A DNA stretch of 64,000 nucleotides from Orenia metallireducens (GTDB lineage: Bacteria > Bacillota > Halanaerobiia > Halobacteroidales > Halobacteroidaceae): NCBI RefSeq assembly GCF_003001995.1, contig NZ_PVNB01000001.1, positions 248,001 to 312,000 of the forward strand. The letters run 5' to 3'. Made by a program: the position numbers and the translations under genes. The notes under the pieces are model-generated. The model saw nothing but the letters and a program-made list of their open reading frames with translations, searched no databases and was not told the DNA's origin. Positions 38,215 through 46,606 of this stretch are shown here, piece by piece (the first letter of the stretch is position 1; the number at the start of each line of letters is the position of its first letter).

Positions 38215-38250
38215 AATAAAAAAAGAGCAAGAGATTTTACTCTCTTACTC
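38215..38250 (-). terminator. Rho-independent terminator of the atp operon
   Basis: On the minus strand GAGTAAGAGA and TCTCTTGCTC pair around a six-base loop, followed by seven T. The stem includes the atpC stop codon. Confidence 0.85.
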
Positions 38251-38655
38251 AAAGTTTTTGCCCTTACTGACTTTTAATCTATTCATAGCCTTCTTTAAAG
38301 CGATTTCAGCCCTTTTAGAATTAATTGAGCTATTATCTTTAGACAATCGCTTTTCCGCTCTTTCTTTAGCAGATTTGGCTCGGTCCACATCAATCTCATC
38401 AGAATATTCAGCAGTATCAACCAAGATACTAATCTCTTCAGGTCTTACCTCAATATAACCTGTACTAGATGCTAGTATCCTTTCCTGGTCATTATTCTTA
38501 ATTTTAATCTGACCGATATCTAGACCTGTAACTAGAGGTTGATGTTCTGCTAAAAATCCTCTATCACCATCTATAGTCCTTACAGTTACCATAGATGCTT
38601 CTCCATCATAGACCACCTTTTCTGGTGTAATGATACTAAGTTTCACTGTGGACAT
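38245..38655 (-). CDS. atpC: ATP synthase F1 epsilon subunit
   Basis: The epsilon subunit is part of the central stalk and can inhibit ATP hydrolysis. The 136-residue protein has the N-terminal beta-sandwich (MSTVKLSIITPEKVVYDGEA, DRGFLAEHQPLVTGL) and a C-terminal helical hairpin (DVDRAKSAKERAEKRLSKD). It starts two bases behind the atpD stop and is the last gene of the operon, followed directly by a terminator. Length and domain order are normal. Confidence 0.95.
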   Translation of the reverse strand: MSTVKLSIITPEKVVYDGEASMVTVRTIDGDRGFLAEHQPLVTGLDIGQIKIKNNDQERILASSTGYIEVRPEEISILVDTAEYSDEIDVDRAKSAKERAEKRLSKDNSSINSKRAEIALKKAMNRLKVSKGKNFE

Positions 38656-38657
38656 GA

Positions 38658-40118
<1,461 letters not shown>

Positions 40119-40985
40119 CTATTCTAGTGCTTCTGCCCCTCCAACAATCTCTGATAATTCTTGAGTAATCGCCGCTTGACGAGCACGGTTATAAGATAAC
40201 TTGAGTTTATCAATCATATCTTCAGCATTATCAGTAGCTGAGTCCATTGCTGTCATTCGAGAAGCAAACTCACTAGCTTTTGACTGTATTAATGCACCAA
40301 AGATAACATTCTTTAAATACTGTGGCAATACAGCAGATAGAACCTCTTCTGCTGATGGGTCATAAAGATAGCTTTCTTCCGAGTCATTGACCTCTGCTGA
40401 TTCTGGTGGCTCAATCGGTAATAGTTGTAATCTCTCTACTTTCTGACTAACTACAGAATTAAATTCAGTATAAACTAAATGAACTTCATCTAAAATACCT
40501 TCTGTATATAGCTCTACCAGTTCATTAGATATGTTGGTGGCTGTAGAGAAACCAGGACTATCTTCAATTTCAATATATTCAGAGATAATCTCTGCTTTAT
40601 TCTTAAAGTAATCCCTTCCTTTTTTACCAATAGTTATTAAAGCAGTCTCTTTTTCAGTCTCTTTTTCAGTCTCTTTTAAACCTTTTTCAACCTCTTTAAT
40701 CACACGACTATTGTACGCACCACATAATCCGCGGTCACCAGTAATAAATACATACCCTACCTTCTTCACATCACGCTTCTCAAGGAGAGGATGTAAATCA
40801 TCATCTATTCTAGCTGTAATATCAGCTAAAGTTTCCTTAGTTTTATCAAAAAAAGGCTTAGCATTTTCTGCTCTTTCTTGGGATTTTCTCAACTTAGCAG
40901 CAGCAACCATCTTCATAGCTCTAGTTATCTTTTTAGTACTCTCAACACTAGTAATCTGCCGCTTAATATCCCGCATACTTGCCAT
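40119..40985 (-). CDS. atpG: ATP synthase F1 gamma subunit
   Basis: Gamma is the rotating central shaft. The 288-residue product begins MASMRDIKRQITSVESTKKI, continues with TRAMKMVAAAKLRKSQ, and ends with the conserved MDSATDNAEDMIDKLKLSYN and RARQAAITQELSEIVGGAEA. A short repetitive stretch, LKETEKETEKETAL (about 105-118), comes from a GAAAAAGAGACT-type tandem repeat and sits in a surface region that varies in length. GAGGTGA precedes the ATG at 40985. It is in canonical order between atpA and atpD. Confidence 0.96.
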   Translation of the reverse strand: MASMRDIKRQITSVESTKKITRAMKMVAAAKLRKSQERAENAKPFFDKTKETLADITARIDDDLHPLLEKRDVKKVGYVFITGDRGLCGAYNSRVIKEVEKGLKETEKETEKETALITIGKKGRDYFKNKAEIISEYIEIEDSPGFSTATNISNELVELYTEGILDEVHLVYTEFNSVVSQKVERLQLLPIEPPESAEVNDSEESYLYDPSAEEVLSAVLPQYLKNVIFGALIQSKASEFASRMTAMDSATDNAEDMIDKLKLSYNRARQAAITQELSEIVGGAEALE

Positions 40986-41023
40986 CGTTAAATCACCTCA
41001 CTTTCCTAGCAAAAGAAGATTAA

Positions 41024-42553
41024 TTAAGCAGTAGCTCTATCTTTGCTAGTAGCAAAAGTATCTTTAAATTCTTTAATTGCAGCTTTTAAATTCTCTTCTG
41101 TATCCTCTTCTAGTTTACCACTTTCTACAATAGCTTCTCCAACTTCTGGGTGAGTAGCCTGCATAAACTTAATAAACTCTCTCTCAAATCTTGTGATATC
41201 TTCAACAGGAATATCATCTAAATATCCTTTAGTTACAGCATAAATAATAATAACTTGATCTTCTACTTCTAATGGACTAGTTTCATCCTGTTTTAATACC
41301 TCTACTATTCTCTCTCCACGAGATAATTTCTTCTGAGTAGATTCATCTAAATCAGAACCAAATTGAGCAAAGGCTTCTAATTCACGATATTGAGACATAT
41401 CTAATTTTAATGTTCCTGCAACAGATTTCATCGCTTTAATCTGTGCATTACCACCTACACGAGATACAGATAATCCTACATTAACCGCTGGTCTAACACC
41501 AGAGAAGAACAATTCACTTTCTAAGAATATCTGCCCATCTGTAATAGAGATTACATTTGTAGGGATATATGCCGAAATATCTCCTGCTTGTGTTTCAATG
41601 ATAGGTAGAGCTGTTAAAGAACCAGCACCTAACTCATCATTTAACTTAGCAGCACGCTCTAATAATCTAGAATGTAAGTAGAATACATCCCCTGGATAAG
41701 CTTCGCGTCCTGGTGGTCTTCTTAAAAGTAATGACATCTCACGATAAGCAACAGCATGCTTAGATAAATCATCATAAACAACTAGTACGTCTTCTCCTTC
41801 ATACATAAACCCTTCTCCAATAGTACAACCAGCATAAGGAGCTAAGTATTGTAATGAAGCAGGCTCACTAGCAGAAGCTGACACTACTGTTGTATATTCC
41901 ATGGCACCTGCTTCCTCTAATTTGTTTACAATTTGAGCAACTGTAGAAGATTTCTGTCCAATTGCTACATAGATACACGCTACATCTTTACCTTTTTGGT
42001 TAATAATTGTATCAATTCCGATAGCTGTCTTACCAGTCTGACGGTCACCGATAATCAATTCACGTTGTCCCTTACCAATAGGTACCATAGAGTCAATTGC
42101 CTTAATACCTGTTTGTAATGGCTGTTTTACTGGTTGACGATCTACTATTCCAGGTGCTTCAGACTCAATTGGTCTAGTTTCATTACTATTAATTGGTCCT
42201 TTACCATCAATAGGTTCACCTAAGGCATTAACAACACGCCCCTTTAACTCTTGACCAATAGGAACCTCAACAATTTTATTAGTTCTATTAACAGTATCGC
42301 CCTCTTCAATCTTAGACTCATCACCTAAGATAACGCAACCTATACTATCCTCTTCTAAGTTAAGTGCCATTCCATAAACACCACTATCAAATTCTAATAA
42401 TTCACCAGCCATAGCATCTTCTAAACCATGGATTCTGGCAATTCCGTCACCAACATTAAGTACAGTTCCTACACCTTTTACTTCTAGTTCTACATTATAA
42501 TTTTTTATCTGTTCTTTAATTATAGAACTAATCTCTTCAGGTCTAAGATTCAT
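41024..42553 (-). CDS. atpA: ATP synthase F1 alpha subunit
   Basis: Alpha is the non-catalytic, nucleotide-binding subunit of the F1 head. The 509-residue protein has [19 protein letters not shown] at the start, the P-loop GDRQTGKT (169-176) and the conserved [20 protein letters not shown] and [14 protein letters not shown] motifs. Its start overlaps the end of atpH by 11 bases, indicating translational coupling. All features are standard. Confidence 0.98.
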
Positions 42554-43118
42554 CTATTTTCACCCCTAACTTGCTTACTTCTAAACCTTTTAATTTATTT
42601 TCAAGCTTTTTAAGATGATTTAATAAACTTCCATCAATTATCTTATCACCAATCTTTAAAACCAATCCACCTAATAACTCTGGTTGAACCTTTAATTTTA
42701 AGGCAACCTCTTTTTTAGTGGTATCTTCTAATTTTAACTTTAATTTATCTTGATATTTTGCTGATAATTCAATTGGTGAAATAACTTGAACTTCTAATCG
42801 ACCTTCTTGAATATCAACTAATTTCTTAAATTGTTGATAGATTGCTTGTAGATAATCTACTCTACCCTTATCTACCAATATTTTGATAAAGTTCATTAGA
42901 TAATTTGATAAGTTTTTTTCAAATACCTTTGTTAATGTTTCTTTCTTTTGACCATTACTAAGCTTAGGATGGCTAAGTAATTGCTTAAGTTCATCATTGC
43001 TATCAATGGCACCAACAATTCCATGAAATTGAGTTTGAGTCTCTTCTAAAGCTTTCTCTTCCATTGCCAAATCAAATAAAGCTTGAGCATATCTTTCAGC
43101 AATTTGGTTTCTTAACAT
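42543..43118 (-). CDS. atpH: ATP synthase delta subunit
   Basis: Delta (OSCP) joins the peripheral stalk to the top of F1. The 191-residue protein begins [18 protein letters not shown], the family start, and ends with the conserved [20 protein letters not shown] followed by a short helix. Both ends overlap neighbours (atpF by seven bases, atpA by 11). Sequence conservation is low outside the ends, as usual for this subunit. Confidence 0.95.
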
Positions 43119-43618
43119 CCTAGCTCACCCAACTTATCTTTATCTATTCCTTCAATATAGCTTTCAATTGTCTTCTCTTGTAATTCTGTATTAATAGATT
43201 TCTCTAATAATTGCTTAGTCATTTGGATTGAAATATTTGTCACTTCATCCTTTAAGCTTTCAACAGCTTGTTGTTTAGCACGAGAAATCTCTTGCTCTGC
43301 TCTTTCAATCTTCTGGTTAGCTTCAGATTTTGCTTCATTAATAAGATCTTCTTTATTTCTCTGAGCTCTACGACGACTATCTTCAATTATATCTTGAGCT
43401 TCAGCCTTAGCATCTTGTAACCTTTGTTGATATTCAGCTTTTAACTGTTCTGCTTCATTTTCACGCTCAATAGCCTGATCTATCTGGTCTGAAATTTTTT
43501 CAGAACGATCATTCATAAGATTAGTTATTGGTCCGAATAAGAAGCGTTTTAACACAAAATATAATACCATAAAGTTAATTAGTTGAAGAACAAATGTAGT
43601 TAAATCTAAAGAAATCAA
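43112..43618 (-). CDS. atpF: ATP synthase Fo b subunit
   Basis: The b subunit forms the peripheral stalk. The 168-residue protein has one N-terminal membrane helix (TTFVLQLINFMVLYFVLKRF) and a long charged coiled coil (about 28-140), with the hinge FLFGPITNLMNDRSEKI typical of the family. A single b gene is seen, so the stalk is probably a homodimer. It lies between the small c gene and atpH, with the ATG at 43618 after a GGGGG-rich ribosome site. Confidence 0.95.
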   Translation of the reverse strand: MISLDLTTFVLQLINFMVLYFVLKRFLFGPITNLMNDRSEKISDQIDQAIERENEAEQLKAEYQQRLQDAKAEAQDIIEDSRRRAQRNKEDLINEAKSEANQKIERAEQEISRAKQQAVESLKDEVTNISIQMTKQLLEKSINTELQEKTIESYIEGIDKDKLGELGC

Positions 43619-43716: not shown

Positions 43717-43983
<267 letters not shown>

Positions 43984-44003: not shown

Positions 44004-44576
<573 letters not shown>

Positions 44577-44587
44577 CTATGGAGAGA

Positions 44588-45310
44588 TTAGTCAACTTCT
44601 GTTGCAATATAAGTCATTGTCAACATTGTAAAGATAAAAGCCTGCAATACACCAGCAAAAACATCGAAGTAAAGGCTTGCTATACCTGGAATAAGTATAC
44701 CAACTACACTATATAGCAATCCCATAATTACTACTCCACCTAACATATTACCAAATAGACGGAAGGATAAAGATACTGGGTCTGCTATTGCTCCAATTAT
44801 GTTTAATGGGACTAAAAAGGGCATTGGTTCAAAATAATCTTTTATGTAACCACCAATACCTTTGGCTCTAATTCCAGAGACATGAACAGCAATGAATGTA
44901 ATTAATGCTAAAGCAAAAGTAGTATTTAAATCTGCTGTTGGTGTGTATAAATTGAATAAGTCTCTACCTGGAACAATGCCTATTAGATTAGCAAAGGCTA
45001 GAAACAATATTAATGTACCTATATAAGGGACATACTTCTGTTTTCCAGAGCCCATTGCACTATCTACTAAACCTTGAATTGAATCAACTATAAATTCAGC
45101 AAAATTCTGTAAACTCAAAGCTTTTGGCTTCTCTTTTAAGTTTCTAGTTGATAACCAAGCGAATATAGCTAAAATAGCCATGATTACCCAAGTGGTTATA
45201 ACAGTAGATTTAATTGGAAGACCAGCAACTTCATATACTTTAGGAGCAAAAGCCTCAGGGTTTACGTCTTCAAGAAACATCTTATCAATCAAATTATTGA
45301 TAAATCCCAT
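44588..45310 (-). CDS. atpB: ATP synthase Fo a subunit
   Basis: The a subunit forms the ion half-channels against the c ring. The 240-residue protein has five to six membrane helices and the essential Arg in LSFRLFGNMLGG, with the conserved C-terminal QAFIFTMLTMTYIATEVD. It follows the two small atp genes and precedes the fused c gene. The length is normal. Whether it is tuned to Na+ cannot be read with certainty, but both c genes suggest this. Confidence 0.96.
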   Translation of the reverse strand: MGFINNLIDKMFLEDVNPEAFAPKVYEVAGLPIKSTVITTWVIMAILAIFAWLSTRNLKEKPKALSLQNFAEFIVDSIQGLVDSAMGSGKQKYVPYIGTLILFLAFANLIGIVPGRDLFNLYTPTADLNTTFALALITFIAVHVSGIRAKGIGGYIKDYFEPMPFLVPLNIIGAIADPVSLSFRLFGNMLGGVVIMGLLYSVVGILIPGIASLYFDVFAGVLQAFIFTMLTMTYIATEVD

Positions 45311-45314
45311 CTAA

Positions 45315-45713
45315 TTAACTCCCCTCCTTTCTAGTTAACTCTTGATTCTGTGGAAAAACCTTAAAGATATTACTTACTAAAATAACAAACTTGATAGTTA
45401 ACATACCAATAATTGTTGTCAACAAATTGACATCTGGTCTTTTTAAAGCTATATAAAAAACAGTAAACCAGAGTATATATCTAAATATGTATTGTACCAC
45501 CATATATGCTTGGGCTTTAGTAGGTGTAAAGCTTACTGATTTTTGTAGAGAAATAGCTAATAAATGAAAGTTAACAATCCCCATTACCGATCCTACTAAT
45601 AATCCAAAAGCAGTTCTTTTGTCAAAAAAAATCAATGATATTACCGCTAAAAACAGATTCAATATAATAGTGTATTTTATCACAAAAAACTCAGTTTTTC
45701 TTAATTCCTTCAC
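45315..45713 (-). CDS. atpI: AtpI-like small membrane protein
   Basis: This 132-residue protein has four predicted membrane helices (for example YTIILNLFLAVISLIFF and YIFRYILWFTVFYIALKR) and matches the ATP synthase I family found at the head of atp operons. AtpI is implicated in c-ring assembly or in Mg2+/Ca2+ handling. It starts three bases behind the upstream AtpZ-like gene and lies five bases ahead of atpB. Sequence conservation is weak, so the call rests on size, topology and position. Confidence 0.8.
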   Translation of the reverse strand: MKELRKTEFFVIKYTIILNLFLAVISLIFFDKRTAFGLLVGSVMGIVNFHLLAISLQKSVSFTPTKAQAYMVVQYIFRYILWFTVFYIALKRPDVNLLTTIIGMLTIKFVILVSNIFKVFPQNQELTRKEGS

Positions 45714-45941: not shown

Positions 45942-46028
45942 TACAATTCTCCTATGTACTTAATAATGAGTATGTAAAAATCAAAATTATCCCTTTCTAG
46001 TTTACACAATATATCTCTAAATATACAT

Positions 46029-46060
46029 AAAACCACAGGAACATATAGTAATACCTGTGG
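46029..46060 (-). terminator. Leader hairpin after the c-di-AMP aptamer, likely attenuator
   Basis: On the minus strand CCACAGG and CCTGTGG form a stem with a 14-base loop, followed by TTTTATG. It lies immediately behind the riboswitch aptamer and before the first atp gene, as expected for a transcription-attenuating expression platform. The T-run is short, so its strength is uncertain. Confidence 0.65.
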
Positions 46061-46062
46061 AG

Positions 46063-46258
46063 AAGTATGCCCCTCTTTTCATATGCCTACGAGGTTAGCT
46101 GTCGGATTCGGGTAGAGGATACCCTACTAAATAAAAAATTTAAGATTAAGGACAAAGATAAGTTACAAACACTTAACATTTACTTAACCTCACACTTAAA
46201 TTTATCGTTAGATTCACCCCAAAAATGGTTCCCCCGCTCTTTATAGATTAGGCACTTT
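46063..46258 (-). ncRNA. c-di-AMP riboswitch (ydaO/yuaA type)
   Basis: The minus strand carries the conserved blocks in order: CCTAATCT, then GAGCGGGGGAACCA (46239-46226), GGGGTGAATC (46220-46211), a variable AT-rich insert, a GGGTA...TACCC hairpin, CCGAATCC (46111-46104) and GACAGCTAACCTCGTAGGC (46103-46085), followed by GAGGGGCAT. These are the hallmark segments of the ydaO motif, a c-di-AMP-binding RNA that usually turns genes off through a terminator. A sigma-A promoter lies just upstream and the atp operon downstream. The motif is commonly found on K+ transport, osmolyte and cell-wall genes. Confidence 0.92.
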
Positions 46259-46272
46259 TTAATTCATTTCTC

Positions 46273-46301
46273 ATTATACTACAAAAATATAATATTGTAA
46301 A
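46273..46301 (-). promoter_or_regulatory. Sigma-A promoter of the atp operon
   Basis: On the minus strand TTTACA (46301-46296) and TATAAT (46278-46273) are separated by exactly 17 bases. The predicted start near 46266 lies a few bases ahead of the riboswitch aptamer. This gives an untranslated leader of about 320 bases. Confidence 0.8.
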
Positions 46302-46606
46302 GTTTCTTTAAGTAAGTAAACTTTACTTAAAATTGTCATATAAAACGAACCTACTTTAATAAATATTAGCAACTAAGACTTAGCACTACTTTAACAATTA
46401 CTTGACATGAGTATCCTTATATTAACTAGTTGAATCTCTATTATTCACTTATAACTAATACAAAAATAAACTATAAGATAATAAAACTGACTAGTCAGTT
46501 TTATTATCTTATTATAAAAAATTATATCATAAATGTCAAGTTTTTTTATAATAAGATACTTATTCAATAAAATATTTCATCTATGGGTATTATAGAGAAT
46601 GAATCA
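46302..46606. other. Non-coding spacer between tagO and the atp promoter
   Basis: About 300 bases with no coding region. Apart from the palindromes at 46473-46555 it contains AAGTAAACTTTACTT near 46313-46330, a small palindrome just upstream of the atp -35 box that could be an operator. It also holds CTATGGGTATTATAG near 46580, which resembles the ends of the R2 elements. Confidence 0.45.
46473..46555. repeat. Perfect 40-base palindrome overlapping a second inverted repeat
   Basis: 46473-46512 is an exact palindrome whose centre is AACTGACTAGTCAGTT and whose arms are ATAAGATAAT and its complement. Its right arm runs into TATCTTATTATAAAAAA, which is opposed by TTTTTTTATAATAAGATA at about 46538-46555. 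The two hairpins share an arm and so exclude one another. Confidence 0.8.

Follow-up and report, generated by a model that had tools for sequence, protein, structure and literature searches.

The 64-kb stretch of DNA analyzed here (the window) carries a complete ATP synthase operon, atpZ-I-B-E1-E2-F-H-A-G-D-C, which lies entirely on the minus strand and extends down to atpC at 38245. The first gene, atpZ (45941-45717; ATPase_gene1, PF09527), is preceded by a ribosome binding site, AGGAG, read from the sequence at 45949-45953, and is followed by atpI (45315-45713; PF03899) and by atpB, encoding subunit a (44588-45310; PF00119); all three genes were assigned by Pfam. Two genes for subunit c follow. 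The atpE1 gene (44004-44555), assigned by Pfam and alignment, encodes a 183-aa double-hairpin protein (c1) with the build of 4bem_J, and atpE2 (43717-43968), assigned by Pfam and by comparison with 4bem c2 and 1yce, encodes an 83-aa protein (c2) with the residues of a Na+ site. The genes atpF, H, A, G, D and C occupy 38245-43618, with F, H and A identified by Pfam and G, D and C by reading the translated open reading frames. Upstream of atpZ lies a leader composed of a promoter, a c-di-AMP aptamer and a terminator-like hairpin, and no other gene separates the terminator from atpZ. The original prediction had described a complete atp operon with no gene in between, and this organization was borne out; we add that the promoter, aptamer, terminator and operon all share the minus strand.

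The covariance search proposed as a check on the original prediction, which had recognized the characteristic blocks of a ydaO aptamer, gave a strong pass. Positions 46264-46068 of the minus strand matched the Rfam family RF00379 (c-di-AMP, ydaO/yuaA) with 96.6 bits (E-value 1.4e-21; gathering score 38), and the alignment was full length (1-134) with no broken pairs. RF00379 was the sole Rfam match at gathering score within the window. A permissive Rfam scan of the leader revealed nothing of note besides this aptamer; two miRNA-like hits on a palindrome upstream of the leader were at chance level and were rejected. The Rfam alignment and the sequence place the 5' strand of P1 (UGCCUA) at 46249-46254 and its 3' strand (UAGGCA) at 46084-46089. 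A loop strand, CCUCU (46114-46118), is complementary to AGAGG in the 3' tail (46072-46076), and the two presumably form a pseudoknot. Loop and tail letters co-vary, reading CCCUUA/UAAGGG in Halanaerobacter jeridensis (G006), CCCUU/AAGGG in a relative with a single-contig genome (G007) and CCUUUA/UAAAGG in G145, a genome from another family. When loops and tails were swapped among 28 RNAs, own partners paired slightly better than swapped ones (means of -11.3 versus -9.8 kcal/mol). Judged by its sequence, the element genuinely belongs to the ydaO class of c-di-AMP riboswitches and would bind c-di-AMP. Watson and Fedor reportedly claimed in 2012 that ydaO senses ATP; this reading was set aside in view of the agreement with the c-di-AMP model along the whole aptamer.

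The leader promoter, TTTACA-17-TATAAT (46273-46301, minus strand), agrees with the consensus at 11 of 12 positions and corresponds to the sigma-A promoter with a 17-base spacer described previously. The string match alone is weak, because shuffled sequences yielded about as many matches as the real sequence. All eight family genomes, among them the two without the riboswitch, have the same promoter at the same position. Further upstream, the region 46473-46539 contains a perfect promoter, TTGACA-17-TATAAT (46539-46511, minus strand), followed by a 40-base palindrome with the core ACTGACTAGTCAGT. The two other species of the genus also have both elements, and there the palindrome arms change on both sides. 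The palindrome looks like an RNA hairpin or like the operator of a TetR-like repressor, and the promoter would provide an additional transcription start 5' of the riboswitch. The palindrome core has one other copy in the genome, which also follows a similar promoter (L109, C19:66519).

The putative expression platform (46029-46060, minus strand) consists of the hairpin CCACAGG-14 nt-CCUGUGG at 46060-46033, followed by UUUUAU. As a terminator it is weak, with 7 bp, a 14-nt loop, 4 U and a predicted energy of -10.7 kcal/mol, and it fell below the threshold of a strict terminator scan. A terminator-like hairpin with a T-rich tract was found 3' of the aptamer in 7/7 of the atp leaders identified, so that the stem-loop with a short T-run noted earlier stands as a weak element with a counterpart in every such leader. 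The arms CCACAGG/CCUGUGG are common to the genus of the window and Halonatronum saccharophilum (G008), and are replaced by GACUACGGC/GCUGUAGUC in H. jeridensis and GACUAUGGC/GCUGUAGUC in G007; arm sequences thus differ among the leaders and the pairing is kept. The G145 terminator, ATACACTACAG-TTTT-CTGTAGTGTAT, is unrelated in sequence.

Before the 3' arm of the terminator is made, its 5' arm was predicted to pair with the 5' strand of P1 in G007 and H. jeridensis, and with the 3' strand of P1 in H. saccharophilum. Comparison with 500 dinucleotide shuffles revealed pairings as good in 1/500, 12/500 and 13/500 cases, respectively. In the genus of the window the candidate antiterminator was no better than shuffles (226/500 and 153/500 in the window genome, G000), and the same was true of the candidate pairing in G145. 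In this genus and in G145, the 'off' direction is accordingly assigned from the relatives and from the riboswitch class. The minimum free energy fold of the window leader, in which P1 and the terminator coexist, was also no better than shuffles. A promoter-like TTGTTA-17-TATAAT lies between terminator and atpZ in H. jeridensis (L038 8726-8880, minus strand) and a TTTAAA-16-TATAAT lies in the same interval in G145 (L095 8655-8682, minus strand); either could allow transcription of atp independent of the riboswitch. No promoter-like site was present between terminator and atpZ in the window, its congeners G011 and G012, G007 or H. saccharophilum. Past the terminator, at about 45988-46032 (minus strand), the genus shares a conserved leader block, TTTTATGTATATTTAGAGATATATTGTGTAAACTAGAAAGG, with Natroniella, which has no atp riboswitch.

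Thirteen genomes of the order were searched for RF00379 and subunit a. A c-di-AMP aptamer was located directly before atp in 6 of the 8 family genomes, representing four genera (G000, G011 and G012 from the window's genus, H. jeridensis, G007 and H. saccharophilum). The order wecA-like gene, leader, atpZ, atpI, atpB was found in all 8, and the arrangement promoter-aptamer-terminator-atpZIB is kept in the 6. Between genera, AtpB shares 64-67% identity with the AtpB of the window; the core bases, the loop-tail pairing and the terminator are maintained across the four genera while the surrounding sequence diverges. A class-level search of 59 genomes identified one further case, G145 (82.3 bits), in a different family, and none in the remaining genomes of this set. 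The motif seen in the window is therefore shared by related atp leaders, as the original prediction had invited one to look for: six in the family plus one beyond it. The G145 aptamer lies 243 bases upstream of atpZ, with a gene for a TPR protein upstream in place of the wecA-like gene. These different surroundings suggest that G145 acquired its atp riboswitch independently; alternatively, it may share ancestry with those of the family and have changed later. Outside the class, no ydaO RNA before atp was seen among the matches listed for a 119-genome sample of the phylum, in which the ydaO and atp searches were joined by eye. The atp leaders without ydaO contained no Na+ or other riboswitches at gathering scores.

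The c-subunit residues suggest that the regulated enzyme is of the Na+ type. We took as the Na+ site of subunit c the residues Gln, Val-x-Glu-Ser/Thr-Thr and Tyr, and atpE2 carries Gln, Val-x-Glu-Thr-Thr and Tyr when aligned to 4bem and 1yce. Its closest solved structures are the c subunits of Acetobacterium woodii (4bem; E-value of 1.4e-39 for c2) and the Na+-specific c ring 1yce. In atpE1, hairpin 1 keeps the ion-site Glu and hairpin 2 has Gln instead, within a motif (AVGQTTGIY) present in 6/6 family genomes with c1. The Na+ F1Fo ATP synthase of A. woodii has a hybrid c1/c2 rotor (4bem) with the same combination of an 83-aa c2 and a 183-aa double-hairpin c1, the latter likewise with one ion-site carboxylate per two hairpins. 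Within the family, c1 and the atp riboswitch occur together in six genomes and both are missing from Natroniella; a sister-family genome (G001) has c1 and no atp riboswitch. This co-occurrence is a lead only, because it concerns one clade and few independent events.

The wider genome offers company for a c-di-AMP switch. Of the other two c-di-AMP riboswitches of the window genome, one stands before a histidine kinase-regulator-TrkA-TrkH cluster and one before a KtrB-KtrA-KtrB cluster, arrangements also present in relatives. In the single-contig genome G007, no c-di-AMP riboswitch was found besides that of atp. Diadenylate cyclase (DAC) domains (PF02457) gave three matches in the window genome and were detected in 13/13 genomes of the order. 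Classified by length alone, the window's family has a short (about 250-260 aa, CdaA-like) and a long (about 360 aa, DisA-like) cyclase, and the sister family has the long, DisA-like kind only. The suggested tie to K+ and osmotic status is strengthened by the sister riboswitches before Trk and Ktr genes, the presence of diadenylate cyclase and the Na+ site of the rotor. The third cyclase-domain protein of the window genome (G000:C10:1233-1580; 462 aa, 45 bits) is divergent and was not found in relatives.

The best explanation of the locus, to which we assign a probability of roughly 0.8, is an 'off' switch that acts by early termination in the atp leader and is joined to the control of K+ uptake. 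Transcription would start a few nucleotides past the promoter (46301-46273). With c-di-AMP high and K+ plentiful, folding of the aptamer would lock both P1 and the loop-tail pairing; the hairpin (46060-46033) would then form and end transcription before atpZ. When c-di-AMP is low, during K+ shortage or osmotic stress, the 5' arm of the hairpin would be captured by the strands of P1 or by the tail, and polymerase would read the operon. In this way atp and the K+ uptake operons would share one kind of switch. An 'off' switch by termination is the best supported mechanism, and experiments have demonstrated it for the ydaO switch of kdpFABC in Bacillus thuringiensis: termination is promoted by c-di-AMP, whose level drops when K+ is limiting (PMC6488665). 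With regard to physiology, in an anaerobe a Na+-coupled ATPase would set the Na+ gradient and membrane potential needed for K+ uptake and Na+ export, and because both processes depend on it the ATPase would be raised together with K+ uptake. The analysis shows the identity, position and conservation of the aptamer, the terminator, the K+ uptake genes behind the sister switches and the Na+-type c subunits; we infer the direction of the switch, ligand binding and this physiology, and grade the last as less certain than the mechanism; cells probably set the amount of their Na+-type ATP synthase by their K+ and salt state.

The main rival concerns purpose. It accepts a real 'off' switch and reads it as energy feedback, in which abundant ATP would push c-di-AMP up and ATP synthase down irrespective of K+. 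The older claim of ATP sensing by ydaO would favor such a loop. The loop is also conceivable because c-di-AMP is synthesized from two ATP (PMC6488665). However, riboswitches of the same class precede K+ uptake genes in the window genome, pointing to ion status, and ydaO elsewhere follows K+ (PMC6488665); overall, we regard energy feedback as unlikely. We similarly doubt that the riboswitch governs only part of atp expression, with riboswitch-independent promoters providing basal ATP synthase. The promoter-like sites 3' of the terminator in H. jeridensis and G145 could bypass the switch as this would demand, but the other five leaders, including that of the window, have no such site. It is very improbable that the element is an 'on' switch or has changed its ligand, with atp escaping repression by c-di-AMP. 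Doubt about the direction arises in the window's genus, whose candidate antiterminator is no better than shuffles; against an 'on' switch or a changed ligand stand the full RF00379 match with intact pairs, a terminator directly 3' of the aptamer in the usual 'off' design, and P1-terminator competition of the 'off' type in three relatives. Least probable of all is a relic or passenger aptamer with no control over atp: two family genomes do live without it, but its core bases, loop-tail pairing and terminator are kept over four genera amid diverging surroundings, a further instance occurs in another family, and in G007 it is the only c-di-AMP riboswitch found.

The termination 'off' switch tied to K+ uptake can be extended to a broader and tentative reading, which we consider possible and rather less likely than not to hold in full. 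Here c-di-AMP would run one K+/Na+ bioenergetic regulon, in which Ktr, Trk and the Na+-translocating F-ATPase rise as c-di-AMP falls, and the ATPase, with its hybrid V-type-like rotor, would serve mainly as an ATP-driven Na+ pump. If so, these halophilic fermenters would treat ATP synthase as a machine for osmoadaptation.

The common view of ATP synthase is that of a housekeeping complex controlled at the level of activity. We know of no c-di-AMP riboswitch at the ATP synthase operon of A. woodii. The RNA class described here is long known and its ATP synthase target appears to be new. The ydaO/yuaA (RF00379) RNAs before ktr, trk and kdp share the aptamer class and the promoter-aptamer-intrinsic terminator layout of the window, but the window target is an ATP synthase operon rather than a transporter, osmolyte or cell wall gene; these usual K+, osmolyte and cell wall targets are a common feature of the class and do not define it. 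No link between ydaO and an ATP synthase target was found in 5.39 million open papers, a scope that left aside the original ydaO gene surveys and supplementary tables, and within the same scope we agree with the earlier remark that ATP synthase is not a typical ydaO target. The nearest precedent is provided by Na+-I riboswitches (DUF1646 motif), ion-homeostasis riboswitches that likewise precede ATP synthase genes (PMC9337991, PMC9971707). These have their own aptamer and ligand and act as 'on' switches for Na+, whereas the window has a c-di-AMP aptamer, and an Rfam search revealed no Na+ riboswitch in the atp leaders examined. In Dehalobacter sp. CF, a tandem Na+/c-di-AMP riboswitch is associated with a lysine 2,3-aminomutase gene (PMC9337991). 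It likewise includes a c-di-AMP terminator switch that tunes a salt-stress gene, but there two switches follow one another ahead of an osmolyte gene, unlike the single c-di-AMP switch before atp in the window. A conserved c-di-AMP switch at this position would put a central ion-driven machine under K+ or osmotic control, add a target to those of a well-studied riboswitch class and give c-di-AMP a direct route to bioenergetics.

The two Natroniella genomes, N. acetigena (G009) and N. sulfidigena (G010), retain TTTACA-17-TATAAT and have neither the aptamer nor the terminator. The stretch that follows the terminator in the window could still be aligned, with a score of 60 for N. acetigena (best of 500 shuffles, 42) and 47 for N. 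sulfidigena (1/500 shuffles as good); the corresponding support was weaker for G011, and there was none for H. saccharophilum. A tree of subunit a and the wecA-like protein placed Natroniella inside the riboswitch-bearing genera, with bootstrap values of 79-83 on the relevant branches. This nesting makes loss the likelier direction, and Natroniella would then have lost its atp riboswitch. Natroniella are acetogens, in which the enzyme would have to make ATP, and loss of the switch would therefore fit the regulon reading. With the same promoter and no switch, they offer a natural comparison for what the control is for. Each Natroniella genome has two c-di-AMP riboswitches elsewhere, one of them ahead of the Trk-cluster histidine kinase; the second in N. 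sulfidigena precedes an amino acid permease gene. Riboswitches directly before amino acid permease genes were observed at L022 1501-1790 in N. sulfidigena and at L105 2017-2300 in G145, where the permease ends in a universal-stress-protein domain.
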